From assembly GCA_002841405.1 (NCBI GenBank), contig PGZR01000014.1, positions 1 through 43,528 of the forward strand: 43,528 bases of DNA, read 5' to 3'. The stretch is from Firmicutes bacterium HGW-Firmicutes-4 (GTDB lineage Bacteria > Bacillota > Clostridia > Eubacteriales > Eubacteriaceae). Below are positions 2,924 to 14,800 of the stretch, in pieces. The notes under the pieces were generated by a model that had not been told where the DNA came from, ran no database searches, and worked only from the letters and a program-made list of their open reading frames with translations. Numbering within the stretch: the first letter of the stretch is position 1; each line of letters begins with the position of its first letter. Position numbers and translations under genes: made by a program.

Positions 2924-3841
2924 TTATTTTTGCTTTCGTTTCTGGGCCTCCGCCATAATATTCTTTAGCGTCAGCAACAGCGGATTGCTCTGGCTGTTAC
3001 TGAGGGCATCCTTGGAATAGGTCAATCCGGTCATCGAATTGGCTTCACAGATGTAATAGGTGTCGTTTTCGCCAAACAGAAAATCGATACTGCCAAAGTA
3101 GATATCCAGCACCGCGGCAGCTTGTTCGGCAATTTCCACCACCGCAGCCGGTGGCGTAATAAACTGCAGATCGCCGCCCTGGGAAAGGTTGGATTTAAAG
3201 TTGTCGCCATTGTCCCGGATATAAGCGGTAGAAAATTTCCCGCCGCTTAACATAATCCGCATGTCCCGGCCTTTCGAGGCAGCGATACACTCCTGAATCA
3301 GAATATGGTCATCAAAATTCATGGCGGCGTAAATATCCAGAATATTTTCCAGTTCTTTCTCAGTTTTGATCTGCACCACCCCTTTGCCCTTGCTGCCGTG
3401 CATCACCTTGACCACACAGGGCAGCCCCAGTTCACTGGCAATAAAAGAGGGTTTTGTTTTTGGGGTCATCAGCACCGTTTTAGGGAATAAAAAGCCCTGC
3501 TCGGCGGCTCCCAGTTTTTGAAAAGTCAACAGTTTGTCAGCAGTGTTGTTCAGGCTTTCAGAGCTGTTGACACAAAGCACATCCAGGGATTCCAGCATTT
3601 TAACAACGGCCTTACTATGATAGTTATTGCCGCCGAAAAAGGCTGACAGTGAAAAATCCGGCACCTCTACCGCTTCACCACCGATAAAACAATGCTGGCT
3701 GTCGCCCGGTTCACACATCACCTGGACCTCACTGACGTCCACGGTTCGGATGTTGACACCCATCTTTTCAATCAGCGCAATAATCGTCTGGATCGACGGT
3801 TCTGCCAGGGTTTCATGATTAACTAATAGCCAGCCTAGCAT
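2924..3841 (-). CDS. RimK-like ATP-grasp ligase (second of a tandem pair)
   Basis: This 305-residue protein has the ATP-grasp architecture of the RimK/LysX group, which joins a carboxylate to an amine through an acyl phosphate. Visible features are the ATP-binding lysine segment VVKVMHGSKGKGVVQ (about residues 150-165), the QECIAASKGRDMRIM segment with the conserved Arg-Asp pair, and the metal-binding end FLFGENDTYYICEANSMTG, where the Glu-x-Asn triad is CEAN. It is clearly a paralogue of the gene just upstream, with similar sequence over its whole length, so the two arose by tandem duplication. Its ATG overlaps the upstream gene's end by 7 bases and has GAAGGTGG before it, suggesting translational coupling. 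The substrate is unknown. The context of GH3 synthetases and an exporter suggests adding an amino acid to a small exported molecule. Confidence 0.88.
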   Translation of the reverse strand: MLGWLLVNHETLAEPSIQTIIALIEKMGVNIRTVDVSEVQVMCEPGDSQHCFIGGEAVEVPDFSLSAFFGGNNYHSKAVVKMLESLDVLCVNSSESLNNTADKLLTFQKLGAAEQGFLFPKTVLMTPKTKPSFIASELGLPCVVKVMHGSKGKGVVQIKTEKELENILDIYAAMNFDDHILIQECIAASKGRDMRIMLSGGKFSTAYIRDNGDNFKSNLSQGGDLQFITPPAAVVEIAEQAAAVLDIYFGSIDFLFGENDTYYICEANSMTGLTYSKDALSNSQSNPLLLTLKNIMAEAQKRKQK

Positions 3842-4758
3842 GTTTGGCCACCTTCTCTCAAACGTTTTTTCCAGAGCGGTTCCGGTCGGTCCTTGACCTG
3901 TTTCATTAAATCCGCAAACATTACTTTGATGTCAAAGGCCACTCCCGGCATCGCATTGGCTTCACATAAATAGAAGGTATCATTTTCACCAAACAGAAAA
4001 TCGACGCTGCCCATATTGATTTTAAGCAGTTGGGCCACCTTTTCAGCGGCCTCAATCACTTCTGCCGGTGGGGTATATTCGACGATATGACCGCCCTTGG
4101 CCAGGTTGGATCGAAAGCTCTTTTCATTCTGACGGATAAATGATTTGACAAACTTTCCATTGGCCAGAATCATCCGCAGATCGCGACCAGAAGATGCTTT
4201 GATACACTCCTGAATAATAATTTCATCGCCGATTTCACTGGCGGTGCTCATACTGATCAGGTTGTCCAGTTCTTTTTCATTGTTGACCAGGACCACGCCC
4301 TTGCCTTTGCTGCCATGCATGACCTTCATCACAACGGGATAGTCAAACAGTTTACTGACAAAGGATGCTTCCGTGTATTCGGTGACGAGCAGGGTTTTAG
4401 GAAAGCAAACCGCTTCAATGGACTCGGCCACCAACTGGAAGGTCAACAACTTGTCGTCAACATTTTTGATGGCATCATATGAATTGATGCACAGCACGCC
4501 CAATGATTCCAGCATTCGCAGCGCCGCCGAGGTATGGTAGTTTTTTTCCGTAAAAAAGGCTGCCACCACATAATCCGGCACCTCCATGATTTCGTCACCC
4601 ACATAAAGTTTTCCGTCAAAGTCATGGTCACAGACCACATGGATCTGCAGCGGATCAACCACCATCAGATCGACATGTAACTCTTCCACCACCTTCATAA
4701 TTTTCACAATCGAAGGATCTTCCATTTTACCGGGATTTCTTAATAACCAACCTTTCAT
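3835..4758 (-). CDS. RimK-like ATP-grasp ligase (first of a tandem pair)
   Basis: The 307-residue product is an ATP-grasp ligase of the RimK/LysX type. It shows VVMKVMHGSKGKGVVLV (ATP-binding loop), QECIKASSGRDLRMI and FLFGENDTFYLCEANAMPG (metal site, CEAN). The N-terminal third (MKGWLLRNPGKMEDPSIVKI) matches its downstream paralogue and forms the pre-ATP-grasp domain. The start at 4758 is preceded by AGGAGG with five bases between, so the longer open frame to 4791 is rejected. It begins 16 bases after the stop of the exporter gene, which ties it to that operon. Known relatives add glutamate or other amino acids to peptides, proteins or coenzyme F420. Here the partner and product are unknown, and the pairing with GH3 enzymes is the only clue. 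Confidence 0.88.
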   Translation of the reverse strand: MKGWLLRNPGKMEDPSIVKIMKVVEELHVDLMVVDPLQIHVVCDHDFDGKLYVGDEIMEVPDYVVAAFFTEKNYHTSAALRMLESLGVLCINSYDAIKNVDDKLLTFQLVAESIEAVCFPKTLLVTEYTEASFVSKLFDYPVVMKVMHGSKGKGVVLVNNEKELDNLISMSTASEIGDEIIIQECIKASSGRDLRMILANGKFVKSFIRQNEKSFRSNLAKGGHIVEYTPPAEVIEAAEKVAQLLKINMGSVDFLFGENDTFYLCEANAMPGVAFDIKVMFADLMKQVKDRPEPLWKKRLREGGQTC

Positions 4759-4774
4759 TTTAACCTCCTGAATT

Positions 4775-6501
4775 TTAATTATCTGATGCACTTAAATACA
4801 AATTGGCGTATAAACCACCCAGCTTCATCAGTTCGGCATGACTGCCGACCTCTTTAATGTCGCCTTCCATCATAAAAATAATCTTATCGGCATTTTTGAT
4901 GGTAAAGAGCCGATGGGCGATAATAAAGGTGGTTCGTCCCTTCATCATCGCTTCCATGGCCTGGGTGATCAAAATTTCGGTTCGGGTATCCACCGATGAG
5001 GTTGCCTCATCCAGTATTAATACCTTGGGATCCGCAATAATCGTTCGGGCAATGGCCAGCAACTGACATTCCCCCTCGGACAGGGTGGTAAAATCGCCAC
5101 CGATCCGGGTCTCATAGCCCAGGGGCAGTTTTTTGATAAATTCGTCACACTGGGCTTTTTTTGCCGCCGCGATAACATCTTCCCGGGTTGCCCCGCTTTT
5201 GCCATAAGCAATATTTTCTTCAATGGTGCCATCAAAAAGCCAGGTATCCTGAAGGACCATGCCAAAAGCAGATCTCAAGTTGTGTCGGGTCAGCTCTTTG
5301 ACATTTAAACCTTCTAATAAAATACTGCCGTGATTGATTTCATAAAAACGCATCAGCAGATTGACCAGGGTTGTCTTGCCAGCGCCACTGGGTCCCACCA
5401 CTGCCAGGATTTCTCCCGGCTCAGCTTTTAACGACACATCATGAAATAAGGTCCGTTCCGGAATATAGCCAAACTCGACATTATTAAATTCAATGCTGCC
5501 TTTAGCATTGGTAACATCCAGAACTGCGGTACCGACATCTGCCTGTTCCTCTTCCCGATCCAGAAATTCAAAGATTCGTTCGGCTGCGGCTGCACCGGAC
5601 TGGATAAAGTTTAAGTTATTGGAAATCAGGGCGGTGGGACTGGCAATGTTATTGGCATAGATCAAAAATGCCTGAATTCCCCCAATGGTCAGGGTCCCGG
5701 TAATGACAAAAATCCCCCCCGCCACACAAATGCCAATATAGGCCAGGTTATTGATCAACTTCATCAGCGGTGCACTGAGTCCCGAATAAAACCGCGAACT
5801 TAAATATGATTTGAAGAACCGCTGATTGATACCATCAAATTTTTCGGCCGATTTTGCTTCGTGATTAAAAGACTTGATAATTAAATGACCGTCATAGACT
5901 TCTTCAATCAGTCCATTTAAGGCCCCCAGTTCCTGCTGCTGTCTTCTGAACAGCACCTGGGTTTTTTTTGTAATCAGTTTCATTACAAAATAAGACAGCG
6001 GAATAGCAACAAAGAAGATCAGGCTCAATTGAACATTTAATACCAGCATCATCACAATAATCCCGATAATACTGGTGGCCTGAACCAGGATCTGGGTCAG
6101 ATTGCTTTCCAACGCTCCAGAAAGGGTGGTGGCATCATTGGTGACCCGGGAAAGCAGATCCCCCCGTTCACTCTGATCCAACACATTCAGCGTCAGTTTA
6201 TTCAGTTTTTCCTGAATAGCATGGTCGCGTAATAAGCAAACCCGGCGCTTAAGATATAAAGTACGGCCAGAATAATTAGTTGCTGCCCGATATAGGAAAA
6301 ATCAATATCCGTATTCTTTGAAATACTGTCGGCAATGCTATCGGTCACATCTTTGGTAACCACCGGTGCAAAAATCGCAAAGATGGTACTGGCAATCAAA
6401 GCCACCGCCACAAAAAAGATAACATGTTTTTTGTCCTTTAAATAATGACTCAGCCGCTTACCGATGGCACCAAAGCTGTATTTTCTTTTTTTTGTTTTCA
6501 C
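4775..6501 (-). pseudogene. ABC exporter half-transporter, second subunit, frameshifted within the membrane domain
   Basis: Two adjacent frames together make one ABC exporter subunit. The first (GTG start at 6501, stop at 6202) has 99 residues: a cytosolic start, a membrane helix (VIFFVAVALIASTIFAIFAP) and most of the second helix, ending after ILSAGFAYY. The second frame runs to 4775 and resumes with LRDHAIQEKLNKLTLNVL, then the remaining helices and the ATPase with Walker A GPSGAGKTT, signature LSEGE and Walker B VLILDEATSSVD. Relatives normally have roughly 15 residues between these two points, so a short deletion of 3n+1 bases near 6225-6240 fits best. The signature is degenerate (LSEGE), as in heterodimeric exporters. 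The GTG overlaps the partner's TGA (GTGA). It may be a true mutation, a culture variant or an assembly error. If real, the transporter is dead unless frameshifting occurs. Confidence 0.85.
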
Positions 6502-8237
6502 AGTGACTCCTCCTTCCCATCGCTATAGGATTGGGATTTCAGAATTTCCTGATAAACCAGACAATCTCGGATCAGGTCCTCATGTTTACCCTGACCGACA
6601 ATGGCGCCATTGTCGAGCACCAGAATGCGGTCGGCATGTTTAATGGTGCTGATTCGCTGGGCAACGATTAACACCGTTTTATCCCCAAATTTTTCACGAA
6701 TGGCTTTTCGAACCAGCGAGTCGGTTTTAAAATCCAAGGCTGAAAAGCAATCGTCAAAAATCGTGATCGGGGCTTTTTTGACTGCCGCTCGGGCGATCGA
6801 AAGACGCTGTCGCTGACCGCCGGAAAGATCCTTGCCGCCTTGAGAAATGGAGCTACTGAGCTGACCTTCCCGTTCATTGACAAAGTCTAGTGCCTGGGCA
6901 ATCGACAAGGCTTCGATCACTTCTTCTTCAGTCGCCTGATCTTTCCCTACCCGGATATTTTCCAGCACCGTGCCACTAAATAGCACTGATTCCTGGGGCA
7001 CATAGGCGATGATATTTCTTAAATCATGCTGGGTACAATCCCGGATATCGATGCCATCAATTACAACGGCACCAGCACTGACCTCATAAAGCCGCAAAAT
7101 CAGATTGACCAGAGTTGTTTTCCCGGAGCCGGTGGCACCAACAATGGCGGTGATTTTCCCCGGTTCAGCAACAAAATCCAAACGGTCGAGAACATTGATT
7201 TCGGCACCAGTATAGCCAAAAGAGACATCTTTAAATTCAATTCGGCCGGTAATGTTTTCCAGCGCAGCGGGATTTTCTTTGTCCTGAATCGAGAATTCGC
7301 AATCCAGCACCTCTTTAACCCGGGTTGCCGAAACAGCCGCCTGGGGATAGGCCATTAATAAGGCCGAAACCAGACCCAGAGCAGACATAAACATTAACAC
7401 ATATTGGATAAATACCATCAGACCACCCAGGCTGACGATTTGCTGCTGAACTTCTTCGGCGCCTAACCACAGAATAATCACCATCGTCAGGTTCATCATC
7501 GACTGCATCAACGGCGCAAAAAAAGCCACTGCATAGTTTGCTTTGATGGCGGCTTGCATGCCTTCCTGGTTGGCCTGACCAAATTTCTCGGTTTCATAAT
7601 CCTGCCGGTTAAATGCCCGAATCGCCCGCACCCCGGTGAGTTTTTCTTTCATCAGCAGGTTTAGCCGATCCACTTTCTGCTGCATGATCTTAAATAAAGG
7701 CATGCTTCTGGCGGTGGTCAAGCCGATGATGATCGTCGTAATCAGAAAAGATCCCAGCAGTAGCAGCGTCAACGTGACGTTTTCGCGAAACGCCATCACC
7801 AGTGCGCCAACTCCCGTGATCGGAACCAGCAGCAGTGACCGCAAGCCATTAATGACCACAATCTGCATCTGGGTGGCATCGGTGGTGGAGCGGGTCAGTA
7901 GGGTGGCTGCCCCAAAGCGATTGAAATCGGTTTGGGAAAAACTTTTCACCTTGTCAAATACATCAGCCCGGATCCGGCTGGTAAAGGATGCGGTAACATA
8001 GGCTGAATAGTAGCTGGAAGCGACCATACAGACCGCCGCCACCAGTGAAACCGCCAGCATCATCGCACCGCTTTTCAAAATATAAGGGGTATCCCCCTGA
8101 GCCACCCCGTTTTCAATAATATCCCCCATCATTGTGGGCAGATAAAGCTGGGCCGCCGCCTGGCTGAGCACAAAGACAAAAACCAGAATCATCTGGAGCC
8201 GATAATCTTTTAGATACCGGATAAGTAAACTAACCAT
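6498..8237 (-). CDS. Heterodimeric ABC exporter, first subunit
   Basis: This 579-residue protein is a half-transporter with a six-helix membrane domain (about residues 1-310) fused to an ATPase (about 340-579). Motifs: Walker A GATGSGKTT, signature LSGGQRQR, Walker B TIFDDCFSALD and an H-loop replaced by glutamine (IVAQRIST). The catalytic glutamate after Walker B is aspartate and the H-loop histidine is Gln, both marks of the non-catalytic site in asymmetric exporters such as TM287/288 and BmrCD. The partner's LSEGE signature would face this same site, so the two changes agree. It lies 3 bases after the second GH3 gene's stop region and overlaps the partner gene by GTGA. The likely role is export of the product of the surrounding synthetase genes; multidrug export is the alternative. 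Confidence 0.93.
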   Translation of the reverse strand: MVSLLIRYLKDYRLQMILVFVFVLSQAAAQLYLPTMMGDIIENGVAQGDTPYILKSGAMMLAVSLVAAVCMVASSYYSAYVTASFTSRIRADVFDKVKSFSQTDFNRFGAATLLTRSTTDATQMQIVVINGLRSLLLVPITGVGALVMAFRENVTLTLLLLGSFLITTIIIGLTTARSMPLFKIMQQKVDRLNLLMKEKLTGVRAIRAFNRQDYETEKFGQANQEGMQAAIKANYAVAFFAPLMQSMMNLTMVIILWLGAEEVQQQIVSLGGLMVFIQYVLMFMSALGLVSALLMAYPQAAVSATRVKEVLDCEFSIQDKENPAALENITGRIEFKDVSFGYTGAEINVLDRLDFVAEPGKITAIVGATGSGKTTLVNLILRLYEVSAGAVVIDGIDIRDCTQHDLRNIIAYVPQESVLFSGTVLENIRVGKDQATEEEVIEALSIAQALDFVNEREGQLSSSISQGGKDLSGGQRQRLSIARAAVKKAPITIFDDCFSALDFKTDSLVRKAIREKFGDKTVLIVAQRISTIKHADRILVLDNGAIVGQGKHEDLIRDCLVYQEILKSQSYSDGKEESL

Positions 8238-8240
8238 CGG

Positions 8241-9917
8241 CTACTCCTTATCCACTAAGGCAAAGAAAAAGTTCTCTTTGACCAATGTGTCAATTACCCG
8301 GACCGGTTTTAGCTGATTTGCGGATATCCCCCGCATGATCATCAGATCACGATAGAGGGCATAGGTTTCTTCCTGAACAAAGGAAATCTCCGAGGGACTC
8401 AAGACGCCGCTCTTCACCTTGGATCCAATCGAAGGATTGGCGGTCCCCAACTTTTCTTCCATGATTTGGCGATACGCGTCATACCGTTCTCTGGGCAACG
8501 GTTTTTCTAATTCAATAAAAATAACATAACGGCCTGGCGATACTGCCACATCGGCATAGACCGAATAATCCACCAGTTCGCAGGCGGTGGCCCGGGCAAA
8601 TTCCTTAACCGCCCAGGAAATGCATTCTTCTGTGGTCTTTTCACCAGCAATGCTGACCATCTGATTAAGCCGGTAGACAAATTTGATCTTGGGACAGTTT
8701 TTATACCAACCGACCACCCGCACCACATCTTTGATCCGATAGCGGTAAAAGCCCGAGGTGTTGGTTAACACAATTTCATAATCCTTGCCAGTTTCCAGCT
8801 GTTCCATGGTCAGGGTTTCTTCCGAGTCTTCCTGATCAGCCGGAATAAACTCATAAAAGGCCGAGTCCGGAATCAGCACAAATTCCTGGGCTTCCATTTC
8901 GTTGCAGATCGCCATGATCGACTCAGATGCGGCGTAAACACTAAAATAAATGGGTATATCCCCTAAATAATGGCGCATTTTATCAGTATAAACAGAAAAT
9001 CCCCCACTTCCGATGGCATGAACAAAAGCTAGCTCGGGCCAGATTCGGGGAATGATCGGAGTCTCAAAACCTTTCTCAAATTCTTTTCTTAACTCTCGCG
9101 CCCGTTTGGGGTTCGGCTTAATCTGGGTCAGTAACTGGGCTTTCACATTATCGGGTATTTTTATATCCGGGTCGATGGTGCCTTTTTCGATATCATCGAC
9201 GAGCAATTCCCAGTTTGTTTCCATGTATTTCATCAAGTCAGAAATACCGGTCATAAAGGCTGACACAATATAGGACAGATTTCGATCCATCAGCGCAAAG
9301 CGAAGATGCGCATATTTGGTATCCATTATTTCGGTGGGAAAAACAATTTCCTTGGGTGAGGTGAACATCAGAAACAAAATGTCTTTGATGCTATAGACAC
9401 CCCGTCCTGAAATAGACCCGGCAAATAAACCATTGGGTAGCGTTTCAAATTTGACTTCCATCAAGTTCAGGCCACGACCGCGTCGCCACTTTTTCCCCAG
9501 AGCCCGGGCAATGATGGCAAAACTGAACTGGGTGGCATATTCCCGGTAAAGATCTACGGTTTGTTCCGAAACCGGGATCTTCTTGGGATTATCCACACTT
9601 CCGGAAGTCAGGGCATAATGAACAATGGGGTCTTTGGTAAGCAGATCCGACTCGCCAGCTACCATCCGTTCAATATAAGGAGCATAATCATCATAAATTG
9701 AAAATGGCACCATTTTTTTATAATCTTCAACGGTGTTAATCTTATCAAAATGATAGCGTTTTCCATATTCGGTATCGGCATTTTTTGCTAGCATATCCAG
9801 CAACAGCTGCTTGTTTATTTCCGGAGCATTTTCTGTTAACCGATCAAAATTCTCTATTTTTTTGTAGCCTTTTTTAATATTTAGGGTATAGATCAACTTT
9901 GGTATAATTTTTATCAT
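8241..9917 (-). CDS. GH3-family acyl-acid amide synthetase (second copy)
   Basis: The 558-residue product belongs to the GH3 family, adenylating enzymes of the ANL type best known from plants, where they join auxin or jasmonate to amino acids. The three nucleotide-binding motifs are visible: TSGSVDNPKKIP (about residue 105), YAASES (about 325) and FYRYRIKDVVRV (about 400), the last with Lys-Asp where Gly-Asp is common. The C-terminal domain contains VSIAGEKTTEE, typical of the family. The ATG at 9917 overlaps the stop of the upstream GH3 gene as ATGA and has GGAAGG ahead of it, so the open frame to 9938 is not used. Bacterial GH3 proteins are mostly unassigned. Expected chemistry is ATP-dependent coupling of a carboxylic acid to an amine, with release of AMP; the substrates are unknown. 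Confidence 0.9.
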   Translation of the reverse strand: MIKIIPKLIYTLNIKKGYKKIENFDRLTENAPEINKQLLLDMLAKNADTEYGKRYHFDKINTVEDYKKMVPFSIYDDYAPYIERMVAGESDLLTKDPIVHYALTSGSVDNPKKIPVSEQTVDLYREYATQFSFAIIARALGKKWRRGRGLNLMEVKFETLPNGLFAGSISGRGVYSIKDILFLMFTSPKEIVFPTEIMDTKYAHLRFALMDRNLSYIVSAFMTGISDLMKYMETNWELLVDDIEKGTIDPDIKIPDNVKAQLLTQIKPNPKRARELRKEFEKGFETPIIPRIWPELAFVHAIGSGGFSVYTDKMRHYLGDIPIYFSVYAASESIMAICNEMEAQEFVLIPDSAFYEFIPADQEDSEETLTMEQLETGKDYEIVLTNTSGFYRYRIKDVVRVVGWYKNCPKIKFVYRLNQMVSIAGEKTTEECISWAVKEFARATACELVDYSVYADVAVSPGRYVIFIELEKPLPRERYDAYRQIMEEKLGTANPSIGSKVKSGVLSPSEISFVQEETYALYRDLMIMRGISANQLKPVRVIDTLVKENFFFALVDKE

Positions 9918-11635
9918 TTTTCGCCTTCCTTTGCCCAATGAATAATACTGCTTTTCTCCGGGTATTCTTTGACTATAGTTTTTAATTTGGTTTGATTCAC
10001 ATTTTTCCCCGGCATGATCGATCGGGTAAACAGCGAGTCCCGGTAGCCATCCTGCATCACCAGCAGCTCAGGTGCTGCCAATATATTGTCGTTGCGTAAT
10101 TTTTGATAATCCCGGTTATCGGCCATCAGGCTTTTATCCAGCGCCGATCTGAATAATTCACCGTCAAGTGTTTCTGAGCAGGGTTCCAGCATAAATACCA
10201 ATTTTCGCTGATTGGCATCTAATAACAGCTGAAAAAAACGAATTTCCAGGTTTTGTTGGACGGACACCCTTTGAATGGATCCTTCAATCTCGTAAATCAT
10301 CAACTTCAAATTCTCGATGTCAAGGCGTTCGGATTCTTTACAGACAAAAACAACCCTGGGGATCTGCTTAATCATATCCGTGACATAGACAATATCCTTC
10401 ATATTATAGCGATACAGCCCAGAGTAGGAAGTGATAATCAGCTCGTAATAGCAGCCTTTTTTCAACTGATGTGCCAGAACGGTTTGATTATCTGCGGTTC
10501 CCACCGGCAAAAATTCAAAAAAATAACCAAAGAGAGCGAGTAATCCAGCCGGATCCTGGGCTTTATCTGGTATATTGAACTTGCCTTCGCTGGCGCCGTA
10601 GCCCCATTCCAAAAACTTCACAGTCTCTGGCAAAACCTTTTTCACATCGGCGACTATTTTTGCCGCACTGGAAGACATCCAACAGGACACAACCGAAAAC
10701 TCCGGCCAGATTTTCGCCACATCCAGGCATTTATTTTTCGCTAGAATTGTTTTCAATTCGTCAGCCCGATCCGGGTTTGGCTGTAATTTTGACTCCAGTT
10801 TTTCCCGCAGCGATGCATCCAAACATATTTTTGAAGATATCTGACCCTTGCTGATATCTTCTAGCAAATCAGTTGCAGCTTCATTCATTTTTTTCAGCAA
10901 GATATTAAAGTGCGCAATATTACTGCAAACCACCCCAACCAGATTCTTTTCTTCCAAAGCATAACGGATCGTCAGATAATCGGTGGCCTCGTTACTCACT
11001 TCTTTGGCCATCATCATTTCTGGCGGCAACACCATTTTTTTTAGCATCTCGATCGGCATATCTTTGGCCGCCTGACCGGAAGCTGAGCCAATCGGAATGC
11101 CCGCTTCAGTCTTTCCATATTCAGAGGGATTGGCAATGGCCAGCACCTTTTTCCCTGGGGCCATAACTTCTGGTGCCAGCATTAACAGCAGGATCGCCCG
11201 AATCTGAGAAACCAGTCCCTTGACCAGCTCGCCGTTTTTACTTTCCGGCAGTAGTTTGGGAATACCGGTGGAACCACTGGTAGCAATAAAACTGGCCGCC
11301 GAACCGTCAAAAAAAATGTCTGCAGCCCCGTCTTTTAATCTGTCAATTTCCGCGGCCACCTGGGAATAGTCCGAAATTGGCACTCTTTTTGTGAACGCAT
11401 CAACGGTTTTAATCTCAGCGAATCCCATTTTTCTTCCAAACTCAGTATTTTCTGCGGATTTTAAAATATCCTGAAGTACACGCAATTGTGTGACCTCAGG
11501 ACTATTTTCTATTAAATAGAAGCTTTTGACTAATTTTTCATTGGGCATTTCCTTTAATAACTCAGGAATGCTTTTGCCTTCACTCGCTTCAAAGATGTCA
11601 CTGGAAATTTCTTCCGGCATTCTATCTATTGTCAT
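9914..11635 (-). CDS. GH3-family acyl-acid amide synthetase (first copy)
   Basis: A second, diverged GH3 protein of 573 residues. Motif I is FIATSGSTGIPKLLP (about residue 115), motif II is WGYGASEGKF (about 345) and motif III is LYRYNMKDIVYV (about 415). All are intact enough for an active adenylating enzyme. Compared with its neighbour it has an extra N-terminal helix-rich stretch and a more divergent C-terminal domain, with RLDIENLKL in place of the usual GEK motif, so the acceptor site probably differs. The two genes overlap by four bases and must be translated together. The ribosome site is weak (GGTG), 9 bases after the STAS gene stop. Two GH3 enzymes in one operon suggest two successive couplings, or one enzyme that activates and one that has changed its role. 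Confidence 0.88.
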   Translation of the reverse strand: MTIDRMPEEISSDIFEASEGKSIPELLKEMPNEKLVKSFYLIENSPEVTQLRVLQDILKSAENTEFGRKMGFAEIKTVDAFTKRVPISDYSQVAAEIDRLKDGAADIFFDGSAASFIATSGSTGIPKLLPESKNGELVKGLVSQIRAILLLMLAPEVMAPGKKVLAIANPSEYGKTEAGIPIGSASGQAAKDMPIEMLKKMVLPPEMMMAKEVSNEATDYLTIRYALEEKNLVGVVCSNIAHFNILLKKMNEAATDLLEDISKGQISSKICLDASLREKLESKLQPNPDRADELKTILAKNKCLDVAKIWPEFSVVSCWMSSSAAKIVADVKKVLPETVKFLEWGYGASEGKFNIPDKAQDPAGLLALFGYFFEFLPVGTADNQTVLAHQLKKGCYYELIITSYSGLYRYNMKDIVYVTDMIKQIPRVVFVCKESERLDIENLKLMIYEIEGSIQRVSVQQNLEIRFFQLLLDANQRKLVFMLEPCSETLDGELFRSALDKSLMADNRDYQKLRNDNILAAPELLVMQDGYRDSLFTRSIMPGKNVNQTKLKTIVKEYPEKSSIIHWAKEGEK

Positions 11636-11644
11636 TTTAGCACC

Positions 11645-11947
11645 TTATTCGATGGTTAAAATATCTGAGAATCCTGTCATATCAAACACTTCCTGGATTT
11701 CTGGTTTGACATTTTTGATCACCAGACTGCCGCTGAGTGCTTTGGATTTCTTTTGAATCAAGAGTAAAACCCGCAATCCGGCACTGCTCACAAAATCCAG
11801 TTTATCAAAATCCAAAATCATATTAAATCCTTGTTTAGTGTAATATGCTTCCATTTCTTTTTGAAATTCAGGAGAAGTATTGGTATCCATCCGACCCTCC
11901 AGTTCAACCACAAATATTTCGCCATCTTGTTTTACTTCAATTTTCAT
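11645..11947 (-). CDS. STAS-domain protein, anti-sigma factor antagonist type
   Basis: The 100-residue product is a single STAS domain of the SpoIIAA/RsbV type. It shows the opening VEQ-like strand (MKIEVKQDGEIFVVELEGRM), the NTSPEFQKEM helix and the loop DFDKLDFVSSAGLRVLLLI, in which Ser-Ser-Ala-Gly contains the serine that partner kinases phosphorylate. The start at 11947 has AGAAAGGG seven bases upstream; the open frame reaching 12055 begins in untranslated leader. STAS antagonists normally free a sigma factor from an anti-sigma kinase. No kinase or sigma gene is near. As the first gene of the GH3/ATP-grasp/exporter operon it may be a regulator of that operon, or a domain recruited for protein contact. 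The regulatory role is inferred. Confidence 0.92.
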   Translation of the reverse strand: MKIEVKQDGEIFVVELEGRMDTNTSPEFQKEMEAYYTKQGFNMILDFDKLDFVSSAGLRVLLLIQKKSKALSGSLVIKNVKPEIQEVFDMTGFSDILTIE

Positions 11948-12037
11948 TTTTGTACCCTTTCTTTCTTTTGAAATTATAGACATGATAATTAATTTTTGGA
12001 TCACTAATAATCCAGGGATGTACTGATTCCAGCACTG

Positions 12038-12096
12038 ATGACAAAAAATGGGCAATTACATCATTGCCATAACCATGCATAGCTACTTTTTGTCAT
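12038..12096 (-). promoter_or_regulatory. Structured 5' leader hairpin of the STAS-GH3 operon
   Basis: A perfect 10-bp inverted repeat (ATGACAAAAA with TTTTTGTCAT) encloses a second one (TGGGCAAT at 12049 with ATTGCCA at 12063). Both lie in the predicted leader of about 185 bases between promoter and first gene. It matches no riboswitch I know. It could be a protein-binding or RNA-level control site, or chance in AT-rich DNA. Confidence 0.35.
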
Positions 12097-12138
12097 TTTT
12101 TCAATGGATAAAAGATTTCTTACTTTGAATTTTAAATG

Positions 12139-12167
12139 ATCATACCACAATAATTTGCCATGTGCAA
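12139..12167 (-). promoter_or_regulatory. Predicted promoter of the STAS-GH3-ABC-ATP-grasp operon
   Basis: On the minus strand TTGCAC (12167-12162) and TATGAT (12144-12139) are separated by exactly 17 bases. No other good sigma-A-type match was seen between 11948 and 12260. Confidence 0.6.
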
Positions 12168-12319
12168 TTGCAAAAGCATTCAAAATGTAAACTTGTATTT
12201 AGCCAACATTAATACTTCGTTAAAAATATTCCGTATGTTTTTATAATAGGAAGAATAATCATGACCCTGTCAGCCTCTTACAGTTGCATCAATATTTTTG
12301 ATGCTTATTTTTATTCTTA

Positions 12320-12367
12320 TTTACAATTAATTTTTTTCTTTTACATCTTTGTTACAATCTATTTACA
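12320..12367 (+). promoter_or_regulatory. Tandem TTTACA/GTTACA direct repeats (WalR/PhoP-like operator)
   Basis: Three hexamers, TTTACA (12340), GTTACA (12351) and TTTACA (12362), repeat every 11 bases with 5-base gaps. A fourth TTTACA lies at 12320. In reverse complement each adjacent pair fits the WalR consensus TGTWAH-N5-TGTWAH, and the array equally resembles the PhoP box. The last hexamer is also the -35 element, the arrangement expected for direct activation. The regulator itself is not in the window. Confidence 0.6.
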
Positions 12368-12390
12368 TTAAGAATAATTTATGTTAGAAT
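12362..12390 (+). promoter_or_regulatory. Predicted promoter of the surface-protein gene
   Basis: TTTACA (12362-12367) and TAGAAT (12385-12390) are 17 bases apart, each differing from consensus at one position. The leader to the ATG would be about 65 bases. Confidence 0.65.
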
Positions 12391-12463
12391 TACTACACTT
12401 AGAATAAATCTGAGCACTAATGATCACAATAAAAACTATATAAACAAAAAGGGAAGGAATGTC

Positions 12464-14800
12464 ATGAAAAAGAACTCTATTATTTCTATTATTATTATCC
12501 TACTTATCCTCCTTACCGCCATTTTGTTTGTTCGCGGCTGTAGCCAAGAAGGAAGCGAAATGAAAAATTATGCTGTGGCGGGCACCTACACCGAAACCGC
12601 AACCTATCAGAATGGGGAAATCCAGGTTTCCGGGGTCAATATTGAGAATGCTACCTTTACCGGTAACCTGACCATCGTTGACGCGGTTGTTGATGGGGAT
12701 ATTCGGCTGACCAACTCCGCCGTTCAAGGTGAATTACTGGTCAAAGGAGGAGGCACCATTTATCTTGATGGTGGCTCCTACCAGAACATTATCCTTGAGA
12801 AACAGGGTGTAAAAATTGTTTTACTGGGCGAAACAACGGTTGAAAACCTCACTGCCAGAGCTGCGGCTAATATCGTGGTTGACAATCAAAGTAAGATTAA
12901 AACTCTGAATGTTGACAAAGCTGCGAGTCGAACCACCATCACGACCCAGGAAAATGGCACCATTGAAAATATTCAGTCCCGGGGCATCAGCGACATTGTC
13001 CTGAACACCCCGACAAAATTGATTGGCTTTGGTACCAACGCTGGCGGCTCAACCCTTGTTAGCAATGCTGCGGTTGATAAAATCGTGGCTGAATCAAAGG
13101 TTGTTCTCACCCTTAACGCCAACGTCGGCACCGTCTTGTTAACTGCTGCCGGCGAAGGAACCAGCATCATCCTTGGTAACAATGCCGTGATTGCCGCCCT
13201 GGCCACCGAAACTCGGGTCGAAATTACCGGCGAAGGCAGTGTCACCAGTGCCACCACCAATGATGTCTTGAATATTACCGGTACCATAACTCCAGATGTA
13301 GTCTATATTACCACTAAACCCGTTGTCAGTGATCCAAATGGCGGGTTAATGGTCTCAACCAATACCAGCCGTCCGGCTGATACTACCTCAGGGGGCAGCA
13401 GCTCCTGGTATTCAGAATCCAGCAATTCTAGCACGATCATTAATTCAAAATACGATGTGCCACCACTTAACCCAGTGGATCCTGTCAATCCCCCATCACC
13501 GCCAACACCACCTGGCCCACCGATTAATATAGCAGTGGAAGCGATTCAGGTGACCCCAGTTGAAGCAGACGTGATTATGGGGAACACCTTAAAGCTTAAC
13601 ACGGTTGTTTTCCCGACCAATGCTACCAATCAAACGATCATCTGGGAATCTTCCAATAATAATGTTGCCACCGTCACCAATGGAGTAGTCACCCCGGTCG
13701 CCAATGGCGAAGCCATCATCACAGCCCGAACTCAGGACGGCAATAAAACTGATACCTGCAAGATTACGGTTAAAACAAATATCGCCGCCGTAACGATGAT
13801 CAATACCATCAACGCCGTCAATAATGGTATTGCCGAAACCATTGCTTACGACAGCAACTATAACCTGCCAGTTGTGGTAATTGTCCAGGGTCACGGCAGC
13901 GAAATCTTACCCTGTTCCGTTACATGGACCCCCAACACAGTAGATACGAAGAAGGTGGGCGAAACTACCTATACCGGAACCCTGGTAATGCCGACTGGTT
14001 ATGTTAACCTGAATAATGTCCAGGCTACCATTGCCCTGACCGTTCTGGCCCAGCCAGTGATTACCGCCAGTTCCGAGCTGTCATCCCAGCGACTTTATTT
14101 AAATGAAGATCCTGCCCCCGTCTTTGTTGAGGCCAGTGTGACTGAGGATAAGACCTTATCCTATCAATGGTCTTTCCGGACTGGTGATGTAGAAACCCCG
14201 ATGCCAGAGGTAACTGGCCCAATTTATGACCCACCAGTATCAACAATCCCGGGTACAGTCTATTATACCTGTGTGATTATGACCGAAAATGCAGAGCCTG
14301 TTAGCGTATTAGCTGGTATTGTTGTGACCAGCGCTGACCCGGCTGTGTTACCGGAATCAACCGATCCCGTTGATAAAGCTACGGTGACCAACCCCACCGA
14401 TCCCAGCATGTTCGCCGGATTAGCTGAAATGCCAGCCATCAATGAACAGCCGACCAGCATTTCACAACTGAGTGGTGTGGCTTTAGCAACCAGTTTAGCT
14501 CAGGCCACCCGGACTGCCCAAGCCGCCCTAGGCACACCTAAATCAGATGCTACCACCGCTTCTTTCTCAGTGGCCGCCAGTGTCAGTGACGGCGGCGAAC
14601 TTAGCTACCAGTGGTTCGAAAATACCGACGCGATCAATGCCGATGGCAAACCGATTGACGGCGCCACCGCTAAAACCTTTGAAGCCGATGCTTCCGGCCC
14701 GGCCGGTACCACCTACTACTATGTGGAAGTCACCAATACCAAAGCAGGTTGCCTGCCGGTAACCACGGTCAGTGTCCCGGTTTCGCTCACCGTCGTATAA
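12464..14800 (+). CDS. Envelope-anchored surface protein, beta-helix plus Ig-like domains
   Basis: The 778-residue product starts with a hydrophobic segment (residues 6-23) ending in VRGC at Cys26. This is either a membrane anchor or an unusual lipobox, since arginine at -2 is rare. Residues about 40-275 are short valine/isoleucine-rich repeats with many Thr, Asn and Gly, typical of a right-handed beta-helix. A Ser-rich stretch and a proline-rich linker (about 330-352) follow. Next comes a Big_2 domain (about 357-437, with SSNNNVATVTNGVVTPVANG), a second Ig-like repeat with VTWTPNTVDT, and two more Ig-like modules (SYQWSF and SYQWFE). No LPxTG, SLH or cell-wall-binding repeat is seen, so anchoring must be N-terminal. 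The start has GGGAAGGA upstream. The gene stands alone between a promoter with WalR/PhoP-like repeats and a strong terminator. The likely role is structural or adhesive. Confidence 0.9.
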   Translation: MKKNSIISIIIILLILLTAILFVRGCSQEGSEMKNYAVAGTYTETATYQNGEIQVSGVNIENATFTGNLTIVDAVVDGDIRLTNSAVQGELLVKGGGTIYLDGGSYQNIILEKQGVKIVLLGETTVENLTARAAANIVVDNQSKIKTLNVDKAASRTTITTQENGTIENIQSRGISDIVLNTPTKLIGFGTNAGGSTLVSNAAVDKIVAESKVVLTLNANVGTVLLTAAGEGTSIILGNNAVIAALATETRVEITGEGSVTSATTNDVLNITGTITPDVVYITTKPVVSDPNGGLMVSTNTSRPADTTSGGSSSWYSESSNSSTIINSKYDVPPLNPVDPVNPPSPPTPPGPPINIAVEAIQVTPVEADVIMGNTLKLNTVVFPTNATNQTIIWESSNNNVATVTNGVVTPVANGEAIITARTQDGNKTDTCKITVKTNIAAVTMINTINAVNNGIAETIAYDSNYNLPVVVIVQGHGSEILPCSVTWTPNTVDTKKVGETTYTGTLVMPTGYVNLNNVQATIALTVLAQPVITASSELSSQRLYLNEDPAPVFVEASVTEDKTLSYQWSFRTGDVETPMPEVTGPIYDPPVSTIPGTVYYTCVIMTENAEPVSVLAGIVVTSADPAVLPESTDPVDKATVTNPTDPSMFAGLAEMPAINEQPTSISQLSGVALATSLAQATRTAQAALGTPKSDATTASFSVAASVSDGGELSYQWFENTDAINADGKPIDGATAKTFEADASGPAGTTYYYVEVTNTKAGCLPVTTVSVPVSLTVV

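Follow-up and report, generated by a model that had tools for sequence, protein, structure and literature searches.

Plant GH3 enzymes and the bacterial OlsH adenylate a carboxylic acid and then form an amide, and RimK-like ATP-grasp ligases add an amino acid by way of an acyl phosphate. To our knowledge, the plant GH3 enzymes perform a single-step conjugation and are known from no operon with an ATP-grasp ligase and an exporter. Here, we analyzed a stretch of 43,528 nucleotides from Firmicutes bacterium HGW-Firmicutes-4 (contig PGZR01000014.1, our contig C176 of genome G000), called the window below, in which positions 2924-12167 hold a predicted operon on the minus strand. Its seven genes encode, in this order, a STAS protein, two GH3 proteins (GH3a and GH3b), the two halves of an ABC exporter (ABC1 and ABC2), and two RimK-like ligases (ATP-grasp 1 and ATP-grasp 2). 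The operon is conserved in Acetobacterium, whose members serve as model acetogens and in gas fermentation, and we propose that its proteins build a small N-acyl-peptide or amide and release it from the cell, with no nonribosomal peptide synthetase (NRPS) taking part, a reading to which we give a probability of about 0.55, the figure applying to its synthesis-and-export part.

In the biosynthesis of cystargolide and belactosin (CysC with CysD and BelV with BelU; PMC11427300), an adenylating amide ligase N-acylates an amino acid and an ATP-grasp enzyme adds a second one, with no NRPS involved; CysC is described as similar to CfaL-type adenylating amide synthetases, and we set it beside GH3 by that description only. 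The fungal E-64 pathway (PMC12568646) likewise relies on an ATP-grasp enzyme and an amide bond synthetase, two stand-alone enzymes of the same two mechanistic classes, which are used in the reverse order to that of cystargolide and belactosin. This two-ligase logic is known, and by analogy the chemistry of the operon would resemble it: as in cystargolide-type pathways, an adenylating amide ligase and an ATP-grasp ligase are encoded in one operon, both in the window and in its relatives, whereas in the Acetobacterium operon each enzyme class is represented twice and is joined by a dedicated ABC pair and by STAS. OlsH (NF052613; PMC12493201) is a bacterial GH3 with recognizable forms of the three nucleotide motifs found in the window proteins, yet the latter fall far under the NF052613 cut-off, the OlsI partner was not found, and the operon differs. 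The plant enzymes JAR1, GH3.12, and GH3.15 are of the same family and fold as GH3a and GH3b.

The first-pass annotation knew of no named pathway with this gene set, and we found no published description either among the papers listed, though our coverage of subscription journals was thin. One paper that mentions both GH3 and ATP-grasp (PMC8305402) was set aside, the GH3 genes in its available part being unrelated bean genes. Bacterial GH3 proteins are common (over 7,500 BLAST hits; PMC12493201), and OlsH is the only tested one that we found, so that the Acetobacterium operon, if our reading of it is right, would offer a concrete, genetically testable second case.

Gene content and conservation of the operon

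The gene order was obtained from open reading frame (ORF) calls together with Pfam and NCBIfam matches. All junctions are overlaps or gaps of a few bases, namely, ATGA between GH3a and GH3b (provided that the inner ATG near 9917 is the start), GTGA between ABC1 and ABC2, and a 7-base overlap between the two ATP-grasp genes, in agreement with the gene set, order, and tight packing described in the first-pass annotation. Since ORF calling was mechanical (longest non-overlapping frames), small or overlapped genes may be missed. Judged by family membership, the operon unites two kinds of predicted amide-forming enzyme with a predicted export pump.

Near-identical operons occur in A. dehalogenans, A. 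wieringae, A. fimetarium, A. tundrae, A. bakii, A. paludosum, and a metagenome-assembled genome labeled A. woodii, which places the window in Acetobacterium. Of 61 genomes searched, 19 belong to the genus, and 17 of these gave a GH3a match; the other 42, from the family and order, gave none. Gene order is the same in all 15 congeneric loci fetched whole, and all seven genes are present in 14 of them, including L039, where GH3b is split by a frame change; the remaining locus, L045, is without STAS. Because all seven genes stand in the same order in 14 of 15 loci, the arrangement is more than chance. Compared with the window, GH3a is the least conserved protein (mean identity, 69%; minimum, 46%), and the means for the other six are 84 to 91%, the STAS value being computed over 14 loci. 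Elsewhere in the genus, the operon of genome G003 lies in pieces across two contigs, with stops in GH3b, and G006 has a clean empty site, with the pyruvate carboxylase and surface-protein genes present and the operon absent. In G018, the absence of the operon is uninformative, its contig stopping with the surface-protein gene, just at the expected start of the operon.

The N, M, and C domains of GH3 score above the curated Pfam cut-offs in both GH3a and GH3b, and both keep the nucleotide-binding motifs TSGS..PK, YGASE/YAASE, and SG.YRY..KD, taken as given for JAR1 in PMC12493201. The predicted structure of GH3a, with a predicted local distance difference test (pLDDT) score of 70.5 that is good enough for fold comparison only, matches the plant GH3 structures 4epl (E, 1.7e-25; template modeling [TM] score, 0.57) and 6avh_C (TM score, 0.71). 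The GH3b profile matches JAR1 (4epl) with an E value of 3.9e-83; aligning the acyl pockets of GH3b and JAR1 gave no substrate guess, and that reading was dropped. Both ligases carry the RimK domain (PF08443), and against TIGR00768 (cut-off, 143.4 bits) ATP-grasp 2 scores above the cut-off (146.3 bits) and ATP-grasp 1 just under it (142.9 bits). No adenylation (A), peptidyl carrier protein (PCP), or condensation (C) domain of an NRPS was found by Pfam in the window operon. These matches bear out the earlier assignment of GH3 enzymes, RimK-like ligases, and a heterodimeric exporter. A point that had escaped notice is that ABC2 is not one open frame in the window: the frame of positions 6202-6501 differs from that of positions 4775-6184, the shift falling at about 6220-6265. 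In 15 of 15 relatives the gene is a single frame of 589 to 593 amino acids (aa), and the break in the window may be either an assembly error or a real mutation.

Two further GH3-like genes were observed in the genus. One, a distant relative in G000 itself, encodes 548 aa with altered motifs (C131:10010-10321; L052:7924-9570) and groups in the tree with two Chloroflexota sequences on a long branch. The other, in A. bakii (L095:9920-11608), is 39% identical to GH3b and is followed by a gene whose product has ChW repeats and matches peptidase M30.

Proposed pathway, rearranged relatives, and rival explanations

In the proposed pathway, the GH3 enzymes would adenylate a free carboxylic acid, be it a fatty acid, an aromatic acid, or another acyl acid, and form an amide between this acid and an amino acid or amine; the RimK-like ATP-grasps would then activate a carboxylate as an acyl phosphate and add one or two more amino acids, and the ABC1/ABC2 heterodimer would pump the product out of the cell. 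If this is true, an acetogen genus makes a previously undescribed secreted acyl-peptide by means of stand-alone ligases, and parts of the operon could supply new amide-forming biocatalysts.

The linkage of GH3, ATP-grasp, and ABC genes, which the first-pass annotation suggested seeking in other genera, recurs outside Acetobacterium in rearranged form. Profile searches with GH3b (threshold E up to 1e-20) gave matches in 21 of 391 genomes of the class, 4 of which are Acetobacterium, and in 13 of 398 genomes of the phylum, some genomes being in both sets; GH3 copies from these searches are lower bounds, the GH3 of locus L163, for example, not being among the matches listed. In a genus of Clostridia that we call g40, GH3 was found in 8 of 12 genomes. 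Two of its loci (L102 and L103) read ABC1-ABC2-ATP-grasp-RimK-GH3-GH3, L107 and L150 show this arrangement interrupted by a contig end, and L146 and L147 are partial. A second g40 cluster, L101, part of which is also found in L148, reads GH3b-GH3a-NRPS(A-PCP-C)-ABC1-ABC2. Its ABC1 and ABC2 are sisters of their Acetobacterium counterparts (support, 96/96 and 100/98), and its GH3a groups with that of Acetobacterium (93/74); the ABC and GH3 trees carry long-branch warnings, the ABC rows of L101 among them. In L101, an NRPS module thus takes the place of the two ATP-grasps of Acetobacterium, which argues for a peptide-like product. In a third lineage, locus L163 (genome G170) combines genes for MATE, a tandem ATP-grasp (751 aa, with two such stretches), GH3, and SpoIIE. 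Exporter genes also neighbor GH3 elsewhere, of the MFS type in L137, L138, L139, and L151 and of the MATE type in L119, in keeping with export of a product. The rearranged recurrence outside the genus supports the exported acyl-amino-acid or short peptide, made without an NRPS, that the first-pass annotation had put forward, and the NRPS stand-in of L101 points the same way.

Some observations weigh against this pathway. Its substrates are inferred from enzyme families and its product is likewise a prediction; the structure prediction of GH3b was too poor to use (pLDDT, 49.6); and an ATP-grasp gene was detected near GH3 in 7 of the 44 loci outside Acetobacterium, 6 of them by BLAST with RimK-type and ATP-grasp_3 queries, which other ATP-grasp types may escape, and L163 by Pfam. 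Two kinds of GH3 locus are side observations. In L109 (g40, genome G250), a GH3/ABC cluster is eroded, with ABC2 and GH3 fragmented and no ATP-grasp seen, and in L144, L152, L153, and L154 the GH3 gene adjoins genes for two radical SAM proteins, called by Pfam in L144 only (B12-binding above the cut-off in one of the two) and by similar start sequences in the other loci.

Three other explanations of the chemistry were considered. The operon might make a membrane amino-lipid, an N-acyl amino acid of the OlsH kind that an MsbA-like ABC pair would flip and whose head group the ATP-grasps would extend. OlsH, the sole bacterial GH3 with a tested function that we found, makes N-acyl-ornithine from free fatty acids (PMC12493201), and the best NCBIfam scores of ABC1 and ABC2 are to MsbA-type export models, though below the cut-offs. 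However, GH3a and GH3b reach 103.4 and 84.6 bits against an OlsH model with a cut-off of 620, no acyltransferase or alpha/beta-hydrolase (OlsI) domain occurs among the operon genes, and the available part of the OlsH paper does not mention ATP-grasp ligases, so that we consider an amino-lipid unlikely; OlsH identity of the window GH3s was itself rejected on the scores and on the lack of OlsI in the operon. An improbable alternative is detoxification and efflux, in which aromatic acids arising from growth by O-demethylation would be conjugated with amino acids and pumped out. Acetobacterium handles methoxylated aromatic acids, the profile matches of GH3b include GH3.12, a plant benzoate-glutamate ligase, and in four loci from within the phylum (L137, L138, L139, and L151) the GH3 gene is the immediate neighbor of an MFS pump gene, with a MarR regulator in L139 and a PadR regulator in L137; yet none of the seven operon genes encodes a MarR- or PadR-type regulator, and simple conjugation explains poorly why there should be two ATP-grasps or, in the sister cluster, an NRPS module. 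Finally, the ATP-grasps might act as graspetide-type macrocyclases on the precursor of a ribosomally synthesized and post-translationally modified peptide (RiPP). Their resemblance to maturases is weak (24.9 and 29.8 bits against the MvdC model, whose cut-off is 425), the ORFs of 80 aa or more in the tightly packed operon include no apparent precursor gene, and we know of no RiPP pathway with GH3 as a partner. A RiPP operon was rejected on the MvdC scores and the lack of an apparent precursor among these ORFs, and we regard it as very improbable.

The STAS protein and a possible partner switch

In addition to its enzymes, the operon encodes a protein whose closest described setting is the RsbU/RsbV/RsbW system (PMC8256260), with which the Acetobacterium genes share a STAS antagonist, an RsbW-like HATPase, and a SpoIIE phosphatase. 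In SiaABCD (PMC8457831), SiaC binds the enzyme SiaD and activates it, which by analogy may serve as a precedent for a partner-switch network acting on an enzyme; SiaA is the best NCBIfam match of the Acetobacterium SpoIIE protein, at 75.5 bits against a cut-off of 700. Unlike in the Rsb and Sia systems, the Acetobacterium STAS gene is separated from those of the phosphatase and kinase, the proposed output is amide synthesis or export, and no sigma factor was noticed by eye, no search being made, beside the operon or the SpoIIE locus.

The operon STAS protein matches PF01740 (E, 3.6e-18) and TIGR00377 (81 bits; cut-off, 53.45), both on a 136-aa ORF. The TTG start of this longer ORF, at 12055, is probably not the real one, since the STAS ORF is 100 aa long in 10 of the 15 relatives, the other 5 having ORFs of 104 or 114 aa. 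Its SSAGLR motif is invariant in an alignment of 10 STAS proteins. The conserved serine of partner-switch STAS proteins is the phosphorylated residue (PMC8256260), and by analogy the serine of this motif would be the phosphorylation site. The first-pass annotation had called STAS a leader of the operon; given the linkage of SpoIIE and HATPase genes to GH3 in other bacteria, we reassign it as probably a phospho-switch antagonist.

This linkage takes several forms. Locus L097 (Anaeroplasmataceae) reads STAS-GH3-SpoIIE-HATPase, and L119 of genome G215, where GH3 adjoins a MATE exporter, reads STAS-GH3-MATE-SpoIIE-HATPase, its HATPase gene having been missed by the ORF calls and placed by a genome profile search. 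In L120, GH3 adjoins a gene for a SpoIIE-HATPase protein, and in L163, described above, no STAS or free HATPase was seen at the locus. The GH3 proteins of these four loci form one clade (support, 100/99, or 100/97 with L118), three of the four being flagged as long branches. Scores from our profile alignments A4 and A5 are inflated for L097, L119, L120, and L162 because the alignments contain their sequences.

No kinase or phosphatase gene lies beside the operon STAS gene of Acetobacterium, and the candidate pair is found at a separate locus that encodes a MATE protein, a HAMP-SpoIIE protein, one or two GNAT-like proteins, and an RsbW-like HATPase. The Pfam matches for this locus come mainly from L155, in which the tail of the MATE protein reaches 28.5 bits against HATPase_c_2 (cut-off, 27.4); apart from SpoIIE, the locus was inspected in six genomes, and no STAS gene was found in any of the six loci. 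The 17 of 19 genomes with the operon are also those in which a SpoIIE ortholog (at least 69% identical) was found. The complete genome G011 holds two PF01740 genes only, that of the operon and one beside a HATPase gene and a sigma-factor-like gene recognized by eye, and G000, G009, and G010 have a gene pair that we label RsbR/RsbS-like.

From gene neighborhoods, the operon STAS thus looks like a partner-switch antagonist; the phosphatase and kinase genes of its switch would lie at another locus in Acetobacterium, and in some other bacteria such genes are close to GH3. We tentatively suggest that such a switch with the distant SpoIIE locus acts on the operon pathway: the HAMP-SpoIIE sensor phosphatase and the RsbW-like kinase, encoded beside the HATPase-tailed MATE, would set the phosphorylation of STAS, the phosphorylatable antagonist, and its phosphorylation state would gate synthesis or export. 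A broader idea, which we hold to be somewhat unlikely, is that a STAS/SpoIIE/RsbW switch widespread in Firmicutes acts directly on the synthesis and export of amide products (by GH3, ATP-grasp, and MATE or ABC proteins) rather than on a sigma factor, with the HATPase-like tail of MATE as a docking site, and that in Acetobacterium its genes occupy two separate loci with the operon STAS as their sole link. The connection of a partner switch to a GH3 operon would be new; nothing on partner-switched amide synthesis or export was found in the literature, among the matches listed. If real, it represents a new kind of output for a form of signaling known mainly for sigma-factor control.

It is quite possible, and compatible with the proposed chemistry, that STAS is co-transcribed with the operon and unconnected to its pathway, the partner-switch links elsewhere being unrelated. 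STAS is missing from 1 of the 15 loci, and that genome, G014, has two other STAS genes elsewhere; extra STAS genes also occur in G009 (one) and G005 (two). None was found near the g40 GH3 clusters, and on the contigs carrying these clusters in G076 and G110 no SpoIIE or HATPase_c_2 was found among the matches listed. The operon and the SpoIIE locus have no common promoter motif in six loci, the SpoIIE-linked GH3 clade is separate from GH3a and GH3b, the co-occurrence of SpoIIE and operon in 17 of 19 genomes includes one sure absence, G006, with G018 uninformative, and no switch output was noticed in the fetched loci, no systematic search having been made. All of this weighs against a switch acting on the pathway. 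Against an unconnected STAS, however, stand two facts: in three distinct groups (Acetobacterium, G215, and the Anaeroplasmataceae locus L097) its gene immediately precedes GH3, and in four loci SpoIIE is found next to GH3 or one gene off.

Further proteins were seen around such switch genes. MATE proteins with a C-terminal RsbW-like HATPase_c_2 match lie near SpoIIE at L155:5080-6822, L162:3462-5198, L176:3084-4859, and L180:11324-13330, the match in L180 being below the cut-off, and in the aligned tails the nucleotide-binding boxes look degenerate by eye. At L162:3-3449, an NRPS-like protein (partial C, A, PCP, and reductase-like domains) precedes MATE-STAS-SpoIIE/HATPase, placing a partner switch beside an NRPS. 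Two DUF2589 proteins are encoded at L097:7244-9367, upstream of the STAS-GH3-SpoIIE-HATPase set.

Coordinates, upstream region, and neighboring genes

TABLE 1 Positions in the window of the operon genes and of the promoter-like element
Feature	Position	Strand	Basis
STAS-only protein, anti-sigma-factor-antagonist type, 100 aa	11645-11947	-	PF01740, TIGR00377, SSAGLR motif
GH3a, GH3-family acyl acid amido synthetase, 573 aa	9914-11635	-	PF03321 (207.8 bits), GH3_M, GH3_C
GH3b, GH3-family acyl acid amido synthetase, 565 aa	8241-9938	-	PF03321 (297.3 bits), GH3_M, GH3_C
ABC1, half of heterodimeric ABC exporter, 579 aa	6498-8237	-	ABC_membrane, ABC_tran; grouping in ABC tree
ABC2, second exporter half, frame-broken in the window	4775-6501	-	ORF calls, Pfam, whole frame in relatives
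ATP-grasp 1, RimK-like ligase, 307 or 318 aa by start choice	3835-4791	-	PF08443 (95.1 bits)
ATP-grasp 2, RimK-like ligase, 305 aa	2924-3841	-	PF08443 (81.3 bits)
Promoter-like element TTGCAC-N17-TATGAT, TG before -10	12139-12167	-	Pattern scan and upstream alignment

A promoter-like sequence, TTGCRC-N17-TATGAT, is present in 11 of 16 upstream regions, that of the window included, and absent from L037, L039, L044, L047, and L048; in the window, the pattern scan itself gives the element as TGCACA-N16-TATGAT at 12166-12139. An imperfect inverted repeat, TTGCACATGGCAA, at 12155-12167 overlaps the -35 region and is kept in the alignment of closer relatives, so it may be regarded as a candidate operator. 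A terminator-like hairpin at 12068-12051 was rejected, as by eye it is not conserved in the alignment of relatives, and an Rfam search of window positions 11900-12500 (E up to 1) matched no known RNA leader.

Downstream, genes for a metallophosphatase and a DNA glycosylase were kept out of the operon because they are present in only 6 and 7 of the 15 stretches, respectively, some of which may end before these genes. The surface-protein and pyruvate carboxylase genes, which flank the operon, were likewise excluded because both are retained in G006 without it. The surface protein, with Ig-like domains, is encoded divergently upstream of the operon at window positions 12464-14800, and its gene is found in all 15 relatives as well as in the operon-less G006.

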